Below are positions 40,085 to 51,619 of a stretch of 64,000 nucleotides of DNA, piece by piece. A model generated the notes under the pieces. That model was not told the origin of the DNA. It searched no databases and saw only the letters and a list, made by a program, of their open reading frames with translations. Both the position numbers and the translations under genes were made by a program. Positions within the stretch are counted from its first letter, which is position 1, and the number at the start of each line of letters is the position of its first letter. The stretch is from Nocardia arthritidis. GTDB lineage: Bacteria > Actinomycetota > Actinomycetes > Mycobacteriales > Mycobacteriaceae. The stretch lies in the NCBI RefSeq assembly GCF_011801145.1, contig NZ_CP046172.1, positions 9,796,001 to 9,860,000 on the forward strand, in the 5' to 3' direction.

Positions 40085-41455
40085 TTGTCCGCAACACTCG
40101 TCAAGGGCCAGAACGGTCCGCTGACCGTATCCGACGTGGTGATCTCCGTTCAGTTGGCCGCGCCGGCGGATTTGTCCGCGCTGCTGGTCACCGAGCGGGG
40201 CAAGGTCCGATCCGATGCCGACTTCGTCTTCTACAACCAGCCCTCCGGCCCCGGCGTGAACCTGCTGCCCGCCGTCGCCGGGCAACCGACCTCGCTCGCG
40301 ATATCGCTGAACTCGGTGCCGCCGGATATCGATCAGATCCGCGCCGTCGTCACCCTCGACGACAGCACCAGCAATTTCGGCCGTTTCCCCGCACCGGTCG
40401 CGCATGTGGCGAATTCGGTGGGCGAGGTGCTCTACGAATACCGGATCGAGGGTTTGACGAGCGAATCGATCGTCATCGCGCTGGAAGTGTATCGGCGGCA
40501 AGGCGGTTGGAAGGTGCGCGCGGTCGGGCAAGGCTACGCGGGCGGATTCGCCGCGCTGGTCACCGATCACGGCGTCAAGGTCGACGAGGCGCCATCGCAG
40601 TCGGGCTATCCCGCACCGAGTTATCCGGCCCAGCAGGACTATCCGACCCAGCAGGCACCCAACTATCCGCCGCCCGCGCCCGCCTACCCGCCGCAGGTGC
40701 CCCAATATGCCCCTGCCACCGGTTATCCGCCGCCCGGCCCCGGCTATCCGCCGCAGGCGCCGGGGTATCCGCCGCAGGGGCAAGGCTATCCGCCACAGGG
40801 ACAGGGCTATCCGTCACAGGGACAGGGTTATCCACCGCAGGGGCAGCAGCGCCCCGGCGACCTCATCGGATCCCATCCGGTCAGCCTGACGAAGGGCCAG
40901 CAGGTCACCCTCCGCAAGGAGGGTGGCGCCGCGCTGACCTTCGTCAAGATGGGCCTCGGCTGGGATCCCGTGCGCACCAAGATGTTCAGCAACCGCACCG
41001 TCGATATCGATCTCGACGCGTCGGTGGTGATGTTCGCCGATATGAACCTGGTCGATGTCTGCTACTACGGCCAGCTGACCTCCAAGGACGGCTCGATCCG
41101 GCATCAGGGCGACAACCTGACCGGTGAGGGCGAGGGCGACGACGAGACGATCCTCGTCGATCTCACCCGCGTTTCGGCGCATGTGAACACGCTGCTGTTC
41201 ATCGTCACCTCCTACAAGGGGCACACCTTCGAACAGGTGCAGAACGCCTACTGCCGCATGGTCGACGGCGTCACCAACGCCGAGTTGGCCAGGTATTCGC
41301 TGGCGGGCGGTATGCCGTTCACCGCCATCGCGATGTCGAAGGTCTACCGGGTCGGCAACGACTGGAAACTGCAGGCGCTCGGCGAGGGCTTCCACGCCAA
41401 ACATCCGGGCGAGGCGGTGCCCCAGCTCGGGCGGTTCCTCGGCTCCGGCCGCTGA
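40085..41455 (+). CDS. Double TerD-domain protein with Pro/Tyr/Gln repeat linker
   Basis: A 456-residue protein starting at TTG after GAAGG. Residues 1-168 form a TerD-like domain (LEVYRRQGGWKVRAVGQGYAGG) that lacks the usual acidic calcium sites. Residues 170-256 are a low-complexity linker with GYPPQGQ heptads. Residues 260-456 form a second TerD domain with both calcium-binding motifs, VDIDLDAS and HQGDNLTGEGEGDDE. TerD proteins are cytoplasmic calcium-binding stress proteins linked to tellurite, phage and oxidant resistance. The linker resembles those of phase-separating or membrane-associated proteins, an inference only. Confidence 0.9.
   Translation: MSATLVKGQNGPLTVSDVVISVQLAAPADLSALLVTERGKVRSDADFVFYNQPSGPGVNLLPAVAGQPTSLAISLNSVPPDIDQIRAVVTLDDSTSNFGRFPAPVAHVANSVGEVLYEYRIEGLTSESIVIALEVYRRQGGWKVRAVGQGYAGGFAALVTDHGVKVDEAPSQSGYPAPSYPAQQDYPTQQAPNYPPPAPAYPPQVPQYAPATGYPPPGPGYPPQAPGYPPQGQGYPPQGQGYPSQGQGYPPQGQQRPGDLIGSHPVSLTKGQQVTLRKEGGAALTFVKMGLGWDPVRTKMFSNRTVDIDLDASVVMFADMNLVDVCYYGQLTSKDGSIRHQGDNLTGEGEGDDETILVDLTRVSAHVNTLLFIVTSYKGHTFEQVQNAYCRMVDGVTNAELARYSLAGGMPFTAIAMSKVYRVGNDWKLQALGEGFHAKHPGEAVPQLGRFLGSGR
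40742..40846 (+). repeat. Five tandem 21-bp units coding GYPPQGQ heptads
   Basis: In-frame repeat inside the TerD linker: GYPPQAP, GYPPQGQ, GYPPQGQ, GYPSQGQ, GYPPQGQ. The units are near identical at DNA level, so copy number may vary between strains. Confidence 0.85.
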
Positions 41456-41488
41456 GCACACCGGGTGCGAAAACGGGGGATCAGCAAG

Positions 41489-43057
41489 ATGATTCAGCTC
41501 GCGGCGGGCCAGAACACCCGGCTCACCGCCGATACGCTCCAATTCAGTGCGAAAGCCGATGTGGCGCTGGATGTTTCGGCGCTGGTGGTGGCGCCGAACT
41601 TCCAGGTGTTCGACTCCGACGATTTCGTCTTCTACAACCAGCCGCAGGCCGCGGGAGTGCGTCTCACCGATGACGGCATAGTCGTCCGGTTGAGCGAGAT
41701 CCGGGCGGATGCCCGGGCGGTGTTGCTGGTGGTGAGCGTCGATCCGGACGCACCGCCGCGCGAATACGGGCTCGGCACCATCACCGCGACTTTGGCCGAA
41801 AAGGATTCGGTGCTCGCGGAATTCGTCACCACACCGGCCTTCGGGGAAACGGCGCTGATCTGCCTGGAGGTATACCGCCGCGGGGACGAATGGAAGCTGC
41901 GCGCCGTCGGGCAGGGGTATTCCGGCGGGTTGGCGGTGCTGCTCACCGCGCACGGCGTCGAGGTGGAAGACGCGTCGGGTCAGCCGACCGGTGGTGAATA
42001 TATCGGCGCGACAACACATTCCGAGTCACAGGTGCTGACGGCGCCGAATGCGTCGTTCGAGGTCGACCACGGCCTGGAGCGGCTGTGGATGATCTTCGAG
42101 GACGCGGCCCGCTCCGCCGCCGCCCTGGTGTCGGCCCGCGACTTCGCCGAACGCAGGCTCGACGACGAATTGTCCGCGGCGGTGGCCGATCCCGCCGTCA
42201 GGAACTCCCCGGCCGCGGCGAGCGCCAGGCAGGCGGCGCAGCAGCGCTGCGACGAGCTCATCGTCATCGCCGAACGCAACCATCTCACCGACAGCCACCA
42301 GCTGATGCGTGAGCTCGCCGCCGCCGATCGAATCCTGCCGCCCGCCTTGGCATCCTGGGACGCACCGACCTGGGACGGTCCGCACGCCGCCGCCGACGGC
42401 ATCCGGCTCGGCGAGCTCTACGCACCCGACCGGGGACAGCTGCGGGTGCCCTACTGCGTGCCGGTACCGCTCACCCGTCCGCTGTGGATCGACAGCGAAT
42501 CCTCCGCCGCGGTCGCGCCAGTGGTCGGCGCGCTGCTGGCCCGGCTGCTCGCCGCGACACCGGATCGGCGCACGCTGCTCGACATCGTCGACCTGAGCCG
42601 CGCCTTCACCGGCCTCACCGAATTACTCGCCCCGGCGCTGAACGGCCCGCCGATAACCGAATTCGGCGATATCTCGCCCCGGTTGCAGGCGCTGGCCGAC
42701 GCCGCTGAGCTCGCCGAATTGGCCTACACCAGCGGCGGTTTCACCCCGCCGATGGATCATCGGGTGCTGCTGCTCGCCGATTTCCCGCACGGTTACGTGT
42801 CATCGGATATCCGCCGATTCGCCGGACTGATGGTCCGCGGCGAGCTGATCGGGCTGTCCACCATCATCATCGGCCCCGACGAATCCGATTCCGACGACGC
42901 GACATTGGCCGGGCTCGCCCGATCCTGCCGCCACCTCCCGACCACCGGCGCCACCCCGCTTTTCGATCCGTGGACCGGCAGCCCGTGGCTGCTCGACCTG
43001 GATATTCTGCCCCGCGAACCGGGTCGTCAAGCGAAGCTGCTGCGCCACAACCACTGA
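41489..43057 (+). CDS. TerD-domain protein with degenerate FtsK-like C-terminal part
   Basis: A 522-residue protein. Residues 1-165 are a TerD-like domain (LEVYRRGDEWKLRAVGQGYSGG) closest to the N-terminal domain of the preceding protein and also lacking its calcium motifs. A helical segment (about 185-280) follows. The last 240 residues resemble the FtsK/SpoIIIE-like ATPase modules of actinobacterial Ter loci: a strand-helix LLARLLAATPDRRTLLDIVD and HRVLLLADFPHGYVSSD, but no GKS/T Walker A is visible. It may be a structural partner of a DNA-processing complex. ATG 41489 is preferred over GTG 41465. Confidence 0.75.
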   Translation: MIQLAAGQNTRLTADTLQFSAKADVALDVSALVVAPNFQVFDSDDFVFYNQPQAAGVRLTDDGIVVRLSEIRADARAVLLVVSVDPDAPPREYGLGTITATLAEKDSVLAEFVTTPAFGETALICLEVYRRGDEWKLRAVGQGYSGGLAVLLTAHGVEVEDASGQPTGGEYIGATTHSESQVLTAPNASFEVDHGLERLWMIFEDAARSAAALVSARDFAERRLDDELSAAVADPAVRNSPAAASARQAAQQRCDELIVIAERNHLTDSHQLMRELAAADRILPPALASWDAPTWDGPHAAADGIRLGELYAPDRGQLRVPYCVPVPLTRPLWIDSESSAAVAPVVGALLARLLAATPDRRTLLDIVDLSRAFTGLTELLAPALNGPPITEFGDISPRLQALADAAELAELAYTSGGFTPPMDHRVLLLADFPHGYVSSDIRRFAGLMVRGELIGLSTIIIGPDESDSDDATLAGLARSCRHLPTTGATPLFDPWTGSPWLLDLDILPREPGRQAKLLRHNH

Positions 43058-43294: not shown

Positions 43295-44143
43295 TCAGTC
43301 AGCGAGTTCAGGGGAGGCAGAGATGAACCAGTCGACGATTTCCGCACCGGCGAGGATGCCGGAGGCTCTGGTTACGGTCAGGTTGGGATGAGTCCAGTTG
43401 AGCTGTTCGAGCTCGCCGTGGCGCGGGCGGATGGCAGCGTCGGCCGTGCGCAGCATGGCGGCATCGAGCGCGCCGTCACCGGCGGCGAAAGTTCTTGCCT
43501 CATCGGCTAATTCGCCGTTCTCCCGAAGGCGGCGGCGCACCTCGGCCACCGCGCGGCTCTTGCAGACGGCATCGGGCATCGCATAGATCTTGCGCCCCTG
43601 CTGGGATACGGACCAACCACGCGCCCGGCACCACGAATCCCATTCCGCGAGAAATCCTTCCGGAACCGCCCTGGGTTTGACCACCAGATAGCAGAAGAGC
43701 TGGTCGGCGACCCGGAATTTATCCACCCACGAATCATCGATGCGGTCCGCGAGCGCCGCGGTGACCTCGGTGAGCGTTGCGCCACCCGCCCGCACCAGCG
43801 CATCGATATCGCCCCGCCAGTACCGATCCGGCACACCGTCCACCAGGATATTGCCGCCATTGCTGGTGATCGCGTACCGCCAAGGCGCACCCGGCAATTG
43901 GATCCGATCGAACTGCTTGATGGTGCGGGTGGTCGCGGGTACGACGGCCGCCGATACGGTCAGCGCCTGCATCCGCAGCGCGGCCGCGGTGGTCATGAAC
44001 GACAGCGGCGAGCCGTCCAGCTGTTCCACGCAGACGGTCGGCACGTCGGTCGCGGTGTCGAAGGCATTGCGCGAGTAGATCATCGTCCGGTCCAGGTCGG
44101 TGGCTACCAGCGCATGTCTTCGGCGCCTGTGGAATTGGATCAT
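43295..44143 (-). CDS. HAD-family hydrolase of the Ter biosynthetic operon
   Basis: A 282-residue HAD phosphatase. The nucleophile motif DxDxT is in ALVATDLDRTMIYS (Asp16, Asp18), the C2-type cap includes ITSNGGNILVDG, and the acidic motif IV is in FAAGDGALDAAML. Its ATG overlaps the stop of the phosphoribosyltransferase fusion by 1 nt (TGATG), making it the last gene of the operon. In Ter loci a HAD enzyme is predicted to dephosphorylate a nucleoside-like metabolite; that function is predicted, not shown. Confidence 0.85.
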   Translation of the reverse strand: MIQFHRRRRHALVATDLDRTMIYSRNAFDTATDVPTVCVEQLDGSPLSFMTTAAALRMQALTVSAAVVPATTRTIKQFDRIQLPGAPWRYAITSNGGNILVDGVPDRYWRGDIDALVRAGGATLTEVTAALADRIDDSWVDKFRVADQLFCYLVVKPRAVPEGFLAEWDSWCRARGWSVSQQGRKIYAMPDAVCKSRAVAEVRRRLRENGELADEARTFAAGDGALDAAMLRTADAAIRPRHGELEQLNWTHPNLTVTRASGILAGAEIVDWFISASPELAD

Positions 44144-46533
44144 CAGCGCACATCCCTGATCAGTCCCATACACGAATAGGCCAGCTCCGGCACCACCTCG
44201 ACCGGCACGCCGCGGGCCGCGGCGAGCAGGCGGATATGCGCGTGTTCCGGTGCGTCCGCCGACCGGACCAGCACCCGCCACGGCACCCGGCGCAGCAGCA
44301 CCCGAGTGGTCTCGCCGACGCCCGGCTTCACGAAATTCACTCCGGCGATGCCGTATTCGGCGCGCACCCGCTCCACCGAGGCCCAGCCGGACCAGGTCGG
44401 GGTGCGATCGGTGGCGCGCACGGCGGCGACGGCCGCGGCCACCCGCGGCCGCACGGTGTCGAAGGCGGCCGTCACCGTGTCGAGCAGGTGGGCGGACACA
44501 TCGGCGGCGGCCAGTTCCCGGTAGAACTTCGCGCCGTGGAAATCTCCCGGCCCGATGAGCTCGGTGTTCAAGACGGTTCGCGAAACAAGGCCGGAGACGG
44601 TCGAATTCAGGCAGGCCGAGGCGATCAGGAAATCGTCGCGGGTGCCGAAGGTGCGCACACAGTGGCCCGGGTCGGCGAGCACCGCGAGTTCGGCGACGAA
44701 CCGCGCGCCGCCCGCTGCGTGATAGGCGTCGAGCGCGGCGGTGAGCTCGCGGGCGATCGCACCCTTGCCGGTCCAGCCGTCGACGAATACCACCGATGCC
44801 GGATCATGGTGCCCGGCAAGATAATCCAGCGCCACCGCATCGATGCCGCGATCACGCACGATCGAAACGGCGTAGTGCGGTACGGTCAGCCGCGGCAGTC
44901 CGGCGTCGCGTCCGAAGGCCAGCCAGCGCCGCATCAGAATGCCGACCGGCGTACCGGCCCTGGCCAGCGACGCCAGCACGATATCCGGACCGCGTTCGGC
45001 GACAACGAGTTCCGCAACGGTCGCGACCGCGAGCGCCAACCGCTCCGCGCTCGCCGCGAGTACCTTCTCGAACAGCTCGCGATAGTCGGCATCCGGCTGA
45101 TATTCGATCGGCAGCGACTCCGCGTAATGCGCGGTACCCGCCTGGATGCGTTTCTCCCGCTCGGCGATATCGGCCTCGAGATCGGCCTGCGACAGATCGG
45201 TCAGCAGCCAGGAGACCTCGTCCGCCGCATACGATCCGAAATCCGGACCGTGCAGCGGACGAGGCAGTTCCCGTGCGGCGCGCAGTTCCCGCGGATCGGC
45301 GACGGGCAACACCGCCAGCAGGACATCTGACCCGGCGGCGGTCAGTACATCGATCAATCCGCCGTCGGCCGTCAGCGCATCGGTGTCGGCGGGCGCGTCG
45401 ATCACCACGAGCAGAATCGGATCGGATCCACCCGACTCGTCCGGCCACTGCGCGTTGTACAAATAGCGCGGCTGATCCTCACCCGGTTCGGGAGCTGTGA
45501 AACGAAAGCCGCGGCGCAGCGGATAACCGGGCTCGTCCAGAACGTAAGCCGGTGAGCGAGTTGTCGTTTGGAAGCGCGTCGGCGTGCCTGACTCGGCCAG
45601 TCCGGCGGCCAGCCGCAGCGGAAGATACATCAGTTCTTCATGCCCGAGCACGATCACGGGCCTGCCGGGTTCGACGCGCGCTCGCAGCACGTCGGTCGCC
45701 GCGGCAACGGCCGAATCGAAGGCCGCACCATCGGAATCCAGGAAACCGTGCCTACCGCCCTCTGGAACCCCTGCGGGCCAAGGCAATTCGATTCGATCGA
45801 AGGAACCGCGCCACGGCGCTACCGGATTCAACGACGGTTCGGGCAGCTCCGCGACCTTGGTGATCAGATCCTGCGGCAGCACCGTCCGCCCCGACGCCAG
45901 GCATACCGTGTCGATCCGCGCCCCGAGTTCGATTGCCGCGGATTCGAATGCGGCTCGATGCGCGTCCGTCCGCATATCGACGAGCGATGCGAGCACGTAA
46001 TGCGACCGCAGCGCGAACTCGTGCAACGCCCGTATCGCGTCGATGGCCGTCGCACCGGTTGAGATCTCGTCGTCCACCAATACCAGCGGCAGGTCGTTGA
46101 CGAAGATGTCCGCGGGCGCCGGCTGTAGCAGATGGGAGGTGGCGTGCGAATGTCCCTCCTCGAATCCGGTCAGCGTCTCGGCCGTCGCGACCGCGCGCCT
46201 TGTCGAATGCAGGTAGCAGCGCGCCCCGATCCTGGCCGCCACACAGTGGCCGAGACCCGTTGCGGTTTCGGCGAATCCGAGCACAACGGCGTCTCGGTCG
46301 CCCAGTGCCGCGCGGACCAGATCACCAAGCCGATGCCCGGCATCGAGTACGCGGTGCGGGTCGGCGGGCAGGTGTTTGCCGAGCACCGTCGAGACCAGCA
46401 GATGAGCCCGCCGCGGATTGCGCCGCAGACCCGGCCGGATCAGCTCGTCGACCGATGGCCCGGCACCGTCCGGGCCACGCCGCAGCTCGAGTCCCAGAAC
46501 CCGTGTGGCCCATGGGATTTCGTTAGGCGTCAT
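44143..46533 (-). CDS. Fused phosphoribosyltransferase, TRSP, StiP-like and PELOTA-like protein
   Basis: A 796-residue multidomain protein. Residues 1-225 are an orotate-type phosphoribosyltransferase with the PRPP loop VLVDDEISTGAT (151-162). Residues of about 285-365 match TRSP, with VIVLGHEELMYLPLRLA. Residues of about 425-690 match the StiP domain: GSYAADEVSWLLTDL, ARAGTPVGILMRR, HYAVSIVRDRGID, FVDGWTGKGAI and NSTVSGLVSRTVLN. The C-terminal 70 residues look like a PELOTA RNA-binding domain. In proteobacterial Ter operons these parts are, to my knowledge, usually two proteins. ATG 46533 overlaps the aldolase stop (ATGA). Confidence 0.88.
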   Translation of the reverse strand: MTPNEIPWATRVLGLELRRGPDGAGPSVDELIRPGLRRNPRRAHLLVSTVLGKHLPADPHRVLDAGHRLGDLVRAALGDRDAVVLGFAETATGLGHCVAARIGARCYLHSTRRAVATAETLTGFEEGHSHATSHLLQPAPADIFVNDLPLVLVDDEISTGATAIDAIRALHEFALRSHYVLASLVDMRTDAHRAAFESAAIELGARIDTVCLASGRTVLPQDLITKVAELPEPSLNPVAPWRGSFDRIELPWPAGVPEGGRHGFLDSDGAAFDSAVAAATDVLRARVEPGRPVIVLGHEELMYLPLRLAAGLAESGTPTRFQTTTRSPAYVLDEPGYPLRRGFRFTAPEPGEDQPRYLYNAQWPDESGGSDPILLVVIDAPADTDALTADGGLIDVLTAAGSDVLLAVLPVADPRELRAARELPRPLHGPDFGSYAADEVSWLLTDLSQADLEADIAEREKRIQAGTAHYAESLPIEYQPDADYRELFEKVLAASAERLALAVATVAELVVAERGPDIVLASLARAGTPVGILMRRWLAFGRDAGLPRLTVPHYAVSIVRDRGIDAVALDYLAGHHDPASVVFVDGWTGKGAIARELTAALDAYHAAGGARFVAELAVLADPGHCVRTFGTRDDFLIASACLNSTVSGLVSRTVLNTELIGPGDFHGAKFYRELAAADVSAHLLDTVTAAFDTVRPRVAAAVAAVRATDRTPTWSGWASVERVRAEYGIAGVNFVKPGVGETTRVLLRRVPWRVLVRSADAPEHAHIRLLAAARGVPVEVVPELAYSCMGLIRDVR

Positions 46534-47741
46534 ACGGTCACCATGGCGGTCAGCAGGTCGACGAACGACACACCCTTGTTCGCGACCCCGAAAACCCGCG
46601 CCCGCAACAGCGTCTGCCGCGCCCAATTCCGGTGCGGCTTCATCTCGTTCATCTTGTTCCGGTATGCCGAGGCGGCCACCCCGCCGACCTCCTCGCGCAT
46701 GATGTGCGAGGCGTCGGAATATTCCTCGTGCGTCACCACCGAAAGCGCGTGCACCGCGGCGACGTGTGCGGGATGGATCACCGTCTTGCCCTGAATCCCG
46801 TTGGCGCGATCCAGCGTTATCTCGCGCAGCAGCCCGTCCAGGTCCCGGCTCACCAGGTACTGACGGAACGGCACCGCATCGGATTCGGCGAACGGCGCGG
46901 TGCGCAGCAGCGGCCGGAACATCCGCTCGTGGTCGGCGAAGTACTCCCACACCGGCCCGGTGATCACGAAACCGGTTCCGTCCGCGCGCCCGAGGTAGTT
47001 CACGATATCGGCGATCACGTCCGCGACCACCCGCACGTCATAGATGGTGAGGTCGCGATCGCGACGAATTCCGAAGGTGGAGCACATATCGGTGGCGCCC
47101 ACGCGCACCGCGAGCACCCTTTCCCGATGTTCGTCGAGTAGCCGGGCGATCCGGCCGAGTTCGCGATCCCTGGTCTGCCGATGCACCAGCTCCGGCGATT
47201 CGAGCACCGGCATGCCGAACACCGGGCGCTCCAGGATTTCGCACGCTTTATCCAGCGCGGCAAGGTATTCCGGGCCCGAGGCGGCCGTGAATTTCGGAAA
47301 GACGAAGCCGGTGAGCACCCGCGCGCCCGCGCCGAGCTGTCCGGCGATCTCGACCACCGATGCCGCATCGCGCACCCGGACGAACAGCAGCGGATTCGGA
47401 TCGACGCCGCCGGCAAGCACATTCAGCGTCTCCACGGCCAGATGCTCGGCCAGCTCCAGCTCGTCGTCGGCGACCGCGTCCTCCAGATCGATCACCATCG
47501 AGCACACGCCCTGCGCGGCCCGCCGCTGAATGGTCCGCACCAGATCGGGCCGGGTGGCCGGGGCATAGAGCGTCGCGCCGAGCGCGACGGCCAGCAGTTC
47601 TCGATCGGCGCTGCCGCCGAACGGTTCTGGCTGCCGATAGAACAGCTCACGCAGTCGCGGACCCTCGACCTGTTGAAAATGCCGCAGCGGAAACCGTTTC
47701 CGCAGGGATACCGTCGGCCGGACGGCGAAACCCGCGGTCAC
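46530..47741 (-). CDS. HpcH/HpaI aldolase (CitE-like) of the Ter operon
   Basis: A 403-residue TIM-barrel enzyme. Visible family motifs are LYAPATRPDL, the metal and substrate region SMVIDLEDAV (81-90), FVRVRDAASVVEI, FVFPKFTAASG and GMPVLESPELV. Such enzymes make or break C-C bonds with CoA thioesters or pyruvate-type substrates. In Ter loci a CitE-like aldolase is part of the predicted metabolite pathway. GTG 47741, 10 nt after the coiled-coil gene stop and with GAGAG upstream, is the chosen start; a longer frame would overlap that gene. Confidence 0.85.
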   Translation of the reverse strand: MTAGFAVRPTVSLRKRFPLRHFQQVEGPRLRELFYRQPEPFGGSADRELLAVALGATLYAPATRPDLVRTIQRRAAQGVCSMVIDLEDAVADDELELAEHLAVETLNVLAGGVDPNPLLFVRVRDAASVVEIAGQLGAGARVLTGFVFPKFTAASGPEYLAALDKACEILERPVFGMPVLESPELVHRQTRDRELGRIARLLDEHRERVLAVRVGATDMCSTFGIRRDRDLTIYDVRVVADVIADIVNYLGRADGTGFVITGPVWEYFADHERMFRPLLRTAPFAESDAVPFRQYLVSRDLDGLLREITLDRANGIQGKTVIHPAHVAAVHALSVVTHEEYSDASHIMREEVGGVAASAYRNKMNEMKPHRNWARQTLLRARVFGVANKGVSFVDLLTAMVTV

Positions 47742-47751
47742 CGGTTGACTC

Positions 47752-48969
47752 TCATACTTCTCGTGGTCCTGCTTGCTTTCTGATTCGGTCGACAACGCCC
47801 GCGACGAATTCGGCGACGGCATCGAGTTCGGTCACATACGCCCAGTAGTCGGGGTGGCGCCCGGTCAGCGACTCGGTGATCCGGTCGATCCTGGCGGACT
47901 GCGCGTCGAGTACCGAACCCCATTCTGCGGTGAGCCCGCGACCCACCGCGAGCATCTGCGCGTCGCGCAGCCGGAATCGTGTGGCCTTGGCTTTCTCCTG
48001 TGGATTCTCGCGAACCTCCCGCAACAGGGTGAGCCGCTTGGTGACGGCGTCGACCAACCGGTCGGCCTCGGCGAGGTGATCGCGAGCGGCAGTGGTCAGA
48101 TCAAGGGCAAGCTCCGGGTTGTCGTCGGTCAGTGCCGCGCGAGCCCGGCCGAGCGCGGAGTCCGCGGCGTCGATGGCCCGCTGGCTTTCACGCCCATTGT
48201 TAGCCAGATCCGCGGAACTCGCAGCATTGAATTCTCGCAGCAGACCCGAATACGCCGGATCGAGCCGCTCGGCCCTGGTGCGAACGGCGGCGAGCCGGGT
48301 GGTCGCCGACGCGATCGCGGTGGTTGCCGTGCCGCGCCGAGATGGGGCCTGCGCCAACGCATCCGACAGCTCCTTCGCCGCCGTCGCCAACCGGTTCGCG
48401 GCCTCGCGTTGTGCGTTGACATCACCCTGCGCGCCCGCGGCCTCCAATGTGAGCAGAGCCTCATCCACAGCCGCGGCGTGTTCGCGCACAGAGGGATATC
48501 CCGCGTACTCGGATTCGGCCGCCTCCCGCCGCGCCCGCGCCGCGTCGGCGGTCACCTGCTGCACCAGCTGCGGCACCGCGCCGAGCACGGAGACGGCGTG
48601 TTCCAGCGCACCCTGGTTGCCGCGATAGAACTCGTCCACCCCTCTTGCCGCATCGGCGAGCTGCCGCAGCACCGCGTCCACCTTGGCTTGGCCCTGGTTC
48701 ACCGGAGTCTCATCGCGCTCGGCGGCGTCCAGTTCCTCGGTCAGCGCGAGATACGCACCCGCCGCGGCATAGCACCTGGCCCGCACCGCATCCCAGCGCG
48801 CGCCGAGCCGCCGCTCCGGAAAGACCTGATCGGCCGCGACCGTCGCCGCCTCGGCCACACTCTGCCGCTTGTCCATATCCAGGAAAGCGGCCGTCAGCGG
48901 CGGCCGGACCTGTTGAAACCACTCGGTGTTCCCGGAGGATCGGAACCACCCACGCCTACGGCCTGCCAC
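47752..48969 (-). CDS. Long coiled-coil protein heading the Ter biosynthetic operon
   Basis: A 405-residue almost wholly helical protein, rich in Ala, Arg, Glu and Gln with heptad-like spacing (for example around ADAARARREAAESEYAG and AKELSDALAQA). There are no membrane segments, signal or catalytic motif. The N-terminus is basic (MAGRRRGWFRSSG). It is the first gene of the four-gene minus-strand operon and is divergent from terD. Helical proteins accompany many Ter loci, possibly as scaffolds, but I cannot assign this one to a named family. Confidence 0.75.
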   Translation of the reverse strand: MAGRRRGWFRSSGNTEWFQQVRPPLTAAFLDMDKRQSVAEAATVAADQVFPERRLGARWDAVRARCYAAAGAYLALTEELDAAERDETPVNQGQAKVDAVLRQLADAARGVDEFYRGNQGALEHAVSVLGAVPQLVQQVTADAARARREAAESEYAGYPSVREHAAAVDEALLTLEAAGAQGDVNAQREAANRLATAAKELSDALAQAPSRRGTATTAIASATTRLAAVRTRAERLDPAYSGLLREFNAASSADLANNGRESQRAIDAADSALGRARAALTDDNPELALDLTTAARDHLAEADRLVDAVTKRLTLLREVRENPQEKAKATRFRLRDAQMLAVGRGLTAEWGSVLDAQSARIDRITESLTGRHPDYWAYVTELDAVAEFVAGVVDRIRKQAGPREV

Positions 48970-49133: not shown

Positions 49134-49709
49134 ATGGGCGTCAGTTTGTCGAAGGGCGGCAATGTCTCGCTGACCAAGGCAGCGCCGAATCTGACCGCGG
49201 TTTCGGTCGGTCTGGGGTGGGATGTCCGCACCACGACCGGCACCGATTTCGACCTGGACGCGAGCGCCATCGCGACCGGCGCGGACAAGAAGGTGCTCTC
49301 GGACAAGCACTTCGTGTTCTTCAACAACCTCCGCTCCCCGGAGGGCACCATCGAGCACACCGGCGACAACCTGACCGGCGAGGGCGAGGGTGACGACGAG
49401 ACCATCAACGTCGACCTGGCCAACACCCCGCCGAATATCGAGTCGATCGTCTTCCCGGTGTCGATCTACGACGCCGACGCTCGCGGACAGTCCTTCGGCC
49501 AGGTGCGCAACGCCTACATCCGCGTTGTCGACCGCAGCAGCGGCGCGGAGCTGGCCCGCTACGACCTGACCGAGGACGCCTCCACCGAGACCGCGATGGT
49601 CTTCGGCGAGCTGTACCGCAACGGCGCCGAGTGGAAGTTCCGGGCCATCGGTCAGGGCTACGCCTCCGGCCTGGCCGGCATCGCGCGCGACTACGGCGTC
49701 AACGTCTAA
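49134..49709 (+). CDS. terD: TerD-family calcium-binding stress protein
   Basis: A 191-residue single-domain TerD/TerE protein of canonical length. Both calcium sites are intact: FDLDASAIATG and HTGDNLTGEGEGDDETI. The end is KFRAIGQGYASGLAGIARDYGV. It starts MGVSLSKGGNVSLTK. Homologues bind calcium and support tellurite and oxidative stress resistance. It is divergent from the biosynthetic operon across 164 nt and is followed by its own terminator, so it can be expressed highly and alone. Confidence 0.96.
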   Translation: MGVSLSKGGNVSLTKAAPNLTAVSVGLGWDVRTTTGTDFDLDASAIATGADKKVLSDKHFVFFNNLRSPEGTIEHTGDNLTGEGEGDDETINVDLANTPPNIESIVFPVSIYDADARGQSFGQVRNAYIRVVDRSSGAELARYDLTEDASTETAMVFGELYRNGAEWKFRAIGQGYASGLAGIARDYGVNV

Positions 49710-49857: not shown

Positions 49858-49875
49858 ATAATGAAAGGTCCCCGC

Positions 49876-50955
49876 GTGGTACTGCGTATTTTCGGCCTCT
49901 CCGCCGTCGTGACGGTGATCTCGCTGATCGCGGCACTCATCTACGGCGGGCCGACCGCCCTCGCGCTCTGTGCCATCCTCGGCGTGCTCGAAGTGTCACT
50001 ATCCTTCGACAACGCCGTCATCAACGCCACCGTGCTGGAGCGGATGAGCGAGTTCTGGCAGAAGATCTTCCTGACCGTCGGCGTCGTGATCGCCGTATTC
50101 GGCATGCGGCTGCTGTTCCCGCTTGCCATCGTGTGGATCACCGCCAAGCTCAACCCGATTCGCGCATTCGACCTGGCGCTGAACCCACCCACCGACGGCA
50201 GCAAGACCTACGAGCAGCTGCTCACCGACGCGCATCCGCAGATCGCCGCGTTCGGCGGCATGTTCCTGGCGATGCTGTTCCTGAACTTCATCTTCGAGGA
50301 ACGGGAGATCACCTGGCTCAGCTGGCTGGAGAAGCCGCTGGCCCGGGCGGGCAAGCTGGATATGCTCTCGGTGGCGGTCGCGGGTGTCGGCCTGCTGCTC
50401 ACCGCGGAATTCATTGCCTCCGACGCGAATCGGTCGACGGTGCTGATCGCGGGGCTGCTCGGCATGGTCTCCTACATCGTGATCGACGGACTCGGCTCGT
50501 TCTTCCACACCGACGAGGAGGGCGAGGGTGGACCGTCGAAGCTGGTGAAGGCCAGCGGCAAGGCCGCGTTCTTCCTCTTCCTGTACCTGGAGGTGCTCGA
50601 CGCCTCGTTCTCCTTCGACGGCGTGATCGGCGCCTTCGCCATCACCTCCGACCCGATCATCATCGCGCTCGGCCTCGGCCTCATCGGCGCCATGTTCGTG
50701 CGATCGATCACGGTGTTCCTGGTGCGCAAGGGCACGCTGTCGGAGTACGTCTACCTGGAGCACGGCGCGCACTGGGCCATCGGCGCGCTGGCGTTCATCC
50801 TGTTCCTCTCGATCGGCGTGGAAATCAACGACATCGTCACCGGTCTGGTCGGTGTCGGATTCATCGGCGCCGCATTCATCACGAGCATCATTCGCAACCG
50901 CCGCGAGGATGCCCGCGACGTCGATGCCGAACGGGAACGGACGCCGGTAGGCTGA
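49876..50955 (+). CDS. TerC-like membrane protein (DUF475)
   Basis: A 359-residue polytopic protein of the DUF475 branch of the TerC family. Typical blocks are LEVSLSFDNAVINATVL, FWQKIFLTVGVVIAVFGMR and YLEVLDASFSFDGVIGAFA, the two SFDN/SFDG repeats with acidic residues inside membrane helices. TerC relatives export manganese or other divalent metals and work with TerD proteins. GTG 49876 preceded by GAAAGG is preferred; ATG 49861 has no ribosome-binding site and would add five residues. Confidence 0.9.
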   Translation: MVLRIFGLSAVVTVISLIAALIYGGPTALALCAILGVLEVSLSFDNAVINATVLERMSEFWQKIFLTVGVVIAVFGMRLLFPLAIVWITAKLNPIRAFDLALNPPTDGSKTYEQLLTDAHPQIAAFGGMFLAMLFLNFIFEEREITWLSWLEKPLARAGKLDMLSVAVAGVGLLLTAEFIASDANRSTVLIAGLLGMVSYIVIDGLGSFFHTDEEGEGGPSKLVKASGKAAFFLFLYLEVLDASFSFDGVIGAFAITSDPIIIALGLGLIGAMFVRSITVFLVRKGTLSEYVYLEHGAHWAIGALAFILFLSIGVEINDIVTGLVGVGFIGAAFITSIIRNRREDARDVDAERERTPVG

Positions 50956-50995
50956 TTTCGCGGCCGAGCATTCGAAATTGACGAGGGGGATCGCG

Positions 50996-51619
50996 ATGAC
51001 GACCAACAATCCTGGTGGGGTGAACCTATCCAAGGTGACGCTCACCAAGGCGACGCCGAGCATCAGCCTCACCAAACCCGGTGACCAGCACGGAATCATG
51101 CGGGTGAACCTGAATTGGACGACGGGCGCGCGACGCGGGCTGTTCAAGCGGTCGAACCCGATCGATCTCGATCTCGGCTGCCTCTATGAATTGTCCAGTG
51201 GCAAAAAGGGTGTCGTGCAGGCGCTGGGCAACAGCTTCGGCGCCCTGGATGGCGAGCCCTATATCCGGCTCGACGGCGACGACCGCAGCGGCAGCGCGGC
51301 CGGCGGCGAGAATATGCACATCAATCTCGAACGGCCCGACCTGTTCCGGCGGATCCTGATCTTCGCGTTCATCTACGAGGGCGTGCCGAACTGGGCCGCC
51401 GCCGACGGCGTCGTGACCCTGTTCCCGACGGCGGGCCCGCAGATCGAGGTCCGGCTCGACTCCCCGGTGGACGGTGCTCGCTCGTGTGCCATTGCCCTGC
51501 TACAGAATCAGGGCAATGGCATCACGGTGCACCGCGAAGTGCATTACATCAACGGTGCGCAGCGGGAGATCGATAAGGCATACAACTGGGGGATGGACTG
51601 GAAGAGCGGCCGTAAGTAG
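50996..51619 (+). CDS. TerA-like tellurium resistance protein
   Basis: A 207-residue TerD-superfamily protein of the TerA/TerF-like branch. It begins NLSKVTLTKATPSISLTKPG, carries the acidic sites IDLDLGCLYEL and RLDGDDRSG, and the conserved FAFIYEGVPNWAAADG and HREVHYINGAQREID. It is likely cytoplasmic and metal-binding. ATG 50996 follows GAGGGGGA. It lies 40 nt after the TerC-like gene, so they are probably cotranscribed and cooperate at the membrane. Confidence 0.9.
   Translation: MTTNNPGGVNLSKVTLTKATPSISLTKPGDQHGIMRVNLNWTTGARRGLFKRSNPIDLDLGCLYELSSGKKGVVQALGNSFGALDGEPYIRLDGDDRSGSAAGGENMHINLERPDLFRRILIFAFIYEGVPNWAAADGVVTLFPTAGPQIEVRLDSPVDGARSCAIALLQNQGNGITVHREVHYINGAQREIDKAYNWGMDWKSGRK

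Follow-up and report, generated by a model that had tools for sequence, protein, structure and literature searches.

The 64,000-nucleotide stretch of the Nocardia arthritidis genome analysed here (assembly GCF_011801145.1, contig NZ_CP046172.1, positions 9,796,001 to 9,860,000 of the forward strand; hereafter the window) carries a Ter locus, in which a single gene encodes a phosphoribosyltransferase (PRTase) of the PRTase_2 family followed by TRSP, StiP and PELOTA_1 domains (Table 1). The original prediction had described this gene as a 796-residue, four-domain fusion and had allowed that profile searches might fail to find StiP. The fusion is borne out, as the frame is open and all four Pfam families, StiP included, score above their curated cut-offs (PRTase_2, TRSP, StiP and PELOTA_1 at 209.8, 114.5, 340.8 and 118.5 bits, compared with cut-offs of 28.8, 25, 28.7 and 25). 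The phosphoribosyl pyrophosphate (PRPP) loop VLVDDEISTGAT and the other motifs quoted in the prediction were located in the translation. We considered and rejected a misassembly or a frameshift that joins two genes: the source genome is a single 10.0-Mb contig with one copy of the fused gene, and either event is very unlikely because 90 of the 150 rows in the tree described below are fused, 47 of these in other Nocardia genomes. Near the linker of the fused gene, inspection by eye revealed GTG and TTG codons but no ATG that has an evident ribosome site and could provide a separate start for StiP. PADLOC returned no match to the fused protein. The fusion is real and clear, and it is commonplace within its own groups.

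Table 1. The fused gene, its parts and the neighbouring genes, with positions in the window
Feature	Position	Strand	Remarks
Fused gene PRTase_2-TRSP-StiP-PELOTA_1	44143..46533	-	796 aa; one uninterrupted frame; start ATG
PRTase_2 domain, residues 31-215	45889..46443	-	APRT-like type I phosphoribosyltransferase (predicted); hmmscan E 3.4e-62
PRPP loop VLVDDEISTGAT, residues 151-162	46048..46083	-	
TRSP domain, residues 258-397	45343..45762	-	hmmscan E 3.9e-33
StiP domain, residues 433-687	44473..45237	-	hmmscan E 4.9e-102; PRTase fold by prediction
StiP loop FVDGWTGKGAI, residues 583-593	44755..44787	-	at the PRPP-loop position
PELOTA_1 domain, residues 714-793	44155..44394	-	L7Ae-like; hmmscan E 1.1e-34
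C-C bond lyase (PF15617)	46530..47741	-	GTG start picked by eye; 4-base ATGA overlap with the fused gene
HAD-like hydrolase	43295..44143	-	Pfam HAD E 0.0062, under cut-off; TGATG, one-base overlap with the fused-gene stop
405-aa protein without Pfam match, upstream of the lyase	47752..48969	-	
TerD	49134..49709	+	
TerC / DUF475 membrane protein	49861..50955	+	
TerD-like protein	50978..51619	+	no Pfam match of its own; 48% identity to a stretch of a Pantoea gene annotated TerD family
Protein with two matched TerD stretches	40085..41455	+	
TerD domain with long C-terminal part	41465..43057	+	

The first domain combines a PRTase fold with a PRPP loop in which both the acidic pair and the T-G-x-T motif are present, and D155, E156, G160 and T162 of this loop are found in 223 of 223 rows. 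It is alike to adenine phosphoribosyltransferase (APRT) in fold and PRPP loop but differs from it in several respects: identity to the best match is 14%, TRSP follows the domain, and a segment precedes the loop in which H128 and H130 occur in all 223 rows and S129 in 222 of them. We know of no such H128/S129/H130 segment in APRT. By its fold and PRPP loop, the domain is an APRT-like type I PRTase, predicted to transfer phosphoribose from PRPP.

Profile comparison suggests that TRSP is probably a PRTase repeat that has decayed and lost its PRPP loop. The hhalign comparison of TRSP with PRTase_2 gave 72.9% (E 3.1e-5) in one direction and 58.1% in the reverse direction, and 82.9% (E 9.2e-6) with other rows; the score of 35.7 compares with a maximum of 18.4 in 60 column shuffles and 22.2 for the reversed profile. 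Nine decoy families, five of which have 3-4 rows, reached at most 15.5 against TRSP, and one of them reaches 24.1 against PRTase_2. In this alignment G-x-E-E falls opposite G-x-A-E-T and T-T-R-S-P opposite S-T-R-R, and our reading of the model finds its helices and strands in an agreeing order. Three observations count against the repeat: with Actinomycetota rows alone the score falls to 24.7 (8.6%), barely above that of its shuffles (23.1); crossed row sets gave 48.9% and 7.7%; and TRSP has no PRTase match in Pfam or the PDB. No relatives of TRSP were found by sequence among solved structures.

The original prediction assigned the PRTase and StiP to distinct kinds of enzyme, a distinction that the model and residue conservation do not uphold. 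When the two halves of the chain were folded separately, the predicted StiP fold matched PRTases, with PyrR and HGPRT rows tied (Z difference <1), and Foldseek returned PRTases with a probability of up to 1.00 and a best E of 2.4e-3; on the basis of these models we assign StiP a PRTase fold with moderate confidence. Aminotransferases, the top Foldseek rows by E-value, gave a root-mean-square deviation of >20 Å and a probability of 0.5-0.7 and were read as chance matches. Searches by sequence found no PRTase relatives of the StiP part among solved structures. D585, G586, W587 and G591 of the StiP loop are found in 221 of 221 rows, all of which have a single acid at this position (D585-G586) in place of the acidic pair of the PRPP loop, and we therefore class StiP as having a PRTase-like fold rather than as a PRTase.

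StiP is named a cysteine protease by Pfam and NCBI, as in the present title of PF11202 and in the annotation of plasmids. H553 and H666 are found in 218 of 221 rows and C641 in 210, hence there is no invariant catalytic cysteine. The remaining 11 rows carry I, L, S, A or F instead: Pantoea (L027), P. aeruginosa (L028), phage ME3 twice (L031 and L114), L113, L023-L025, L070, L111 and L134, the last being a fused Nocardia gene with serine at the C641 position. Three of these rows (L027, L028 and L031) come from loci that have PRTase and HAD genes. The product name "cysteine protease StiP" is given in L027, in L028 and in plasmid annotations despite the lack of a cysteine at this position. Since a PRTase fold is modelled, DGW is invariant and the cysteine is not, the protease name is doubtful and probably misleading; a domain table of PMC13109261 enters PF11202 as PRTase_1. 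The PELOTA_1 domain that follows StiP is L7Ae-like in sequence (E 0.0026 against L7Ae; a Ribosomal_L7Ae match in 8 of 73 members, best 5.4e-4), and its binding of RNA is a prediction only. On this question PMC5571608 gives, in its accessible text, modelling, docking and simulation only.

We read the fused or split state from the reading frames of the retrieved loci. In Nocardia, 64 of 78 genomes match, with 48 fused, 15 split as adjacent genes and one (G500) broken by contig ends; as the last was not placed, 48 of 63 classifiable genomes are fused. The wider family has matches in 27 of 61 genomes and, minus three Nocardia, comprises 6 fused, 17 split and one incomplete (G043). In another family (f4), which is probably Streptomycetaceae, 56 of 61 genomes match, with 34 fused, 21 split and one that has StiP only (G526); the state counts contain 35 fused f4 rows, one of which (L013) stems from a phylum-wide draw that matched in 20 of 396 genomes, with two candidates scored per genome. 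A DNA search with one fused f4 gene matched Tsukamurella, Streptomyces and Prescottella plasmids at 73-76% identity, which leaves the assignment of f4 to Streptomycetaceae a probable one. At least 586 stretches in genome_contigs encode relatives. The best 80 of these comprise 72 with separate genes, a single fused locus from a Marinisporobacter metagenome-assembled genome (MAG; L096) and seven that showed the StiP half alone, of which three lie at a contig end; as the lead sequence derives from a gut contig, most of the 80 are from Bacillota. The fused protein also matches 2,567 of 72,556 plasmid records. Among the 50 plasmid matches listed, most annotate the StiP and PRTase genes apart, a few name the parts hypothetical, one matches partially, and the unannotated N. 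farcinica record NZ_LN868939.1 is fused (match 828605-831325). On the viral IMG/VR contigs L112, L113 and L114, PRTase-TRSP and StiP-PELOTA are encoded by two separate genes, as they are in phage ME3 (L031, which is probably the same as L114). The expectation that the two halves are usually separate genes in other Ter loci is thus correct for the best 80 genome_contigs loci and for Pantoea, P. aeruginosa and phage ME3, but does not apply at the level of Nocardia (48 of 63) or f4 (34 of 56), where fusion prevails.

A quick FastTree tree of 150 rows, of which 90 are fused and 60 split (Actinomycetota supply 142 of them and the outgroup, with its long branches, 8), demands at least 20 changes between the fused and split states, compared with a mean of 47.3 when the labels are shuffled. 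Of these 20 changes, 19 fall within the Actinomycetota rows, and 11 are forced by starred branches alone. We infer from this tree, which gives no direction, that the join was gained or lost many times in related bacteria. When the genes are split, the stop codon of the first and an ATG, GTG or TTG that could start the second share a four-base overlap in 42 of 52 junctions, a count that excludes one split row, L154. Linkers in 106 fused reading frames, in which some loci are represented twice, have a median of 35.5 residues, and their span of 15-163 residues speaks for tethering of the two halves more than for a rigid channel between them, which bears on the original suggestion that a ribosylated intermediate may be handed from one site to the other. 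In four fused linkers from f4 (L146, L222, L225 and L228) an internal methionine stands just ahead of the StiP domain, by a few residues; it is perhaps the relic of a former start or a start still in use.

The operon around the fused gene, consisting of the lyase, the PRTase pair and the HAD-like gene beside TerD and TerC, has the composition of a Ter biosynthetic operon. It is flanked on one side by TerD, TerC/DUF475 and TerD-like genes in the opposite orientation and on the other by two further TerD genes, the nearer of which extends some 360 residues beyond its TerD domain with no Pfam match there. The gene for the 405-residue protein also adjoins the lyase in L253, L254, L255 and L256. A lyase match below 1e-100 was present in 64 of 64 Nocardia genomes that have the PRTase pair and in 0 of 14 that lack it; a weaker lyase-family match above cut-off is found in all 78. 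Taken together, repeated fusion and splitting, the start-stop overlap of split genes, the operon common to both halves and their co-occurrence with the lyase make it very probable that the two halves act on one pathway, as originally proposed.

Pseudomonadota Ter biosynthetic operons, such as those of Pantoea (L027) and P. aeruginosa (L028), comprise an ATP-grasp gene, PRTase_2-TRSP, a HAD-like gene, StiP-PELOTA and an HpcH/HpaI lyase. The same families adjoin TerD genes in these loci and in the window, and TerC is also present in L027; they differ in that the Pseudomonadota genes are separate, with HAD between the PRTases and ATP-grasp present, whereas the Nocardia locus is fused, has HAD last and has no ATP-grasp gene that we could see. 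ATP-grasp queries match 19 of 114 loci elsewhere, many of these matches being short, so this member is present in some Ter loci only and is not strictly defining. The Ter set of Acinetobacter phage vB_AbaM_ME3 likewise has PRTase, HAD and StiP genes, but as separate genes. Anantharaman et al. (2012), the main paper on Ter biosynthetic genes and likely to show the fusion, aside, no published report of it was found in the accessible parts of the literature on Ter and these domain families, and no paper was found in the literature on tandem or pseudo-PRTases.

We propose, with a probability of about 0.68, that the gene product is an enzyme of the Ter 'biosynthetic' operon in which fusion places two PRTase-type sites on one chain. 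This chain probably comprises an L7Ae-like domain and three domains with a PRTase fold, and the metabolite that it makes is probably derived from a nucleotide. In the proposed mechanism, the first domain would join a base, or a base-like acid supplied by the lyase, to PRPP to form a nucleotide; TRSP, as a PRTase repeat without a PRPP loop, would complete or regulate the site of the first domain; StiP would act either on the nucleotide so formed or on another PRPP; the HAD-like enzyme would take off a phosphate; and the L7Ae-like domain would bind RNA or help to hold the substrate. The end product would serve the Ter response as a nucleoside-like signal or protectant. Fusion would set a 1:1 ratio and nearness of the two sites, both of which split copies may achieve through the start-stop overlap. 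PRPP synthetase consists of two PRTase-fold repeats, one of which has no PRPP loop; likened to this general description, the fused chain differs in that its active repeat comes first. PMC7824862 and PMC8115787 predict that the Ter biosynthetic genes yield a nucleoside-like product, and it is this prediction, along with the co-occurrence described above, that makes a two-site PRTase-type enzyme the best reading. PMC8115787 also reports that terZ-F alone conferred tellurite resistance in E. coli, and the biosynthetic half is therefore not needed for that phenotype.

Several observations weigh against this proposal. StiP shows no significant match to the PRTase_2 profile (10.1%; 0.1% with Actinomycetota rows alone) and, because of the single acid in its loop, is perhaps no PRPP binder. 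Two ATP-grasp queries from other Ter loci gave no tblastn match in the window at E 1e-4, and PF15632 gave only sub-cut-off matches in the whole source genome. Genome G526 (f4, 99% complete) has a StiP-PELOTA gene (L257, 7287-8576) beside TerD/TerC genes and no PRTase_2 match in the genome, an exception qualified by the lack of the cysteine and of part of the conserved N-terminal segment (IQSG-HYxE) in this StiP. Four Bacillota MAGs (L088, L091, L093 and L095) have no PRTase_2 within 6 kb upstream or 1.1-6 kb downstream of StiP, and each of these genomes has PRTase_2 elsewhere; in L093 a HAD-like gene follows StiP. Finally, gene order varies: in Pantoea and P. aeruginosa HAD separates the two PRTases, and L032 and L041 show other arrangements again.

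Of the alternatives, neutral drift is the most credible, although we lean away from it: a small insertion or deletion at the start-stop overlap would have removed the stop, and the fusion would have no meaning beyond operon membership. The frequent changes of state, the overlap that most split genes already have and the wide range of linker lengths all accord with drift, which nevertheless leaves unexplained why the halves stay together in either state and why the overlap is kept in most split pairs. Drift and a two-site biosynthetic enzyme are mutually compatible. A more elaborate form of the two-site enzyme, which we regard as unlikely, would have TRSP serve as an internal pseudo-dimer partner of the active APRT-like domain and StiP take its neighbour's nucleotide instead of PRPP, hence the loss of the second acid, giving a two-step enzyme for an undescribed nucleotide that is RNA-loaded or RNA-controlled through the L7Ae-like domain. 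It is similarly doubtful that StiP-PELOTA is a PyrR-like, RNA-binding nucleotide sensor or regulator, with the fused PRTase making or removing that nucleotide, as the StiP model does not separate PyrR from HGPRT and the work in PMC5571608 cited above is computational. StiP differs from both PyrR and HGPRT in its one-acid loop (DGWTGKG) and L7Ae-like tail. That the fusion joins a cysteine protease to a PRTase is very improbable, since the naming and the widely conserved C641, H553 and H666 are opposed by the predicted fold of StiP, by the PRTase_1 entry for PF11202 and by the 11 rows without the cysteine, three of them in loci with PRTase and HAD genes.

What the Ter biosynthetic genes make has so far only been predicted in the accessible literature, though plasmid records that match the fused protein number in the thousands, as counted above. 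The single chain, a natural form that is frequent in two actinomycete families, offers one protein in which PRPP use and the product can be tested. The results for StiP and TRSP also bear on annotation, and the names of both domains merit re-examination.
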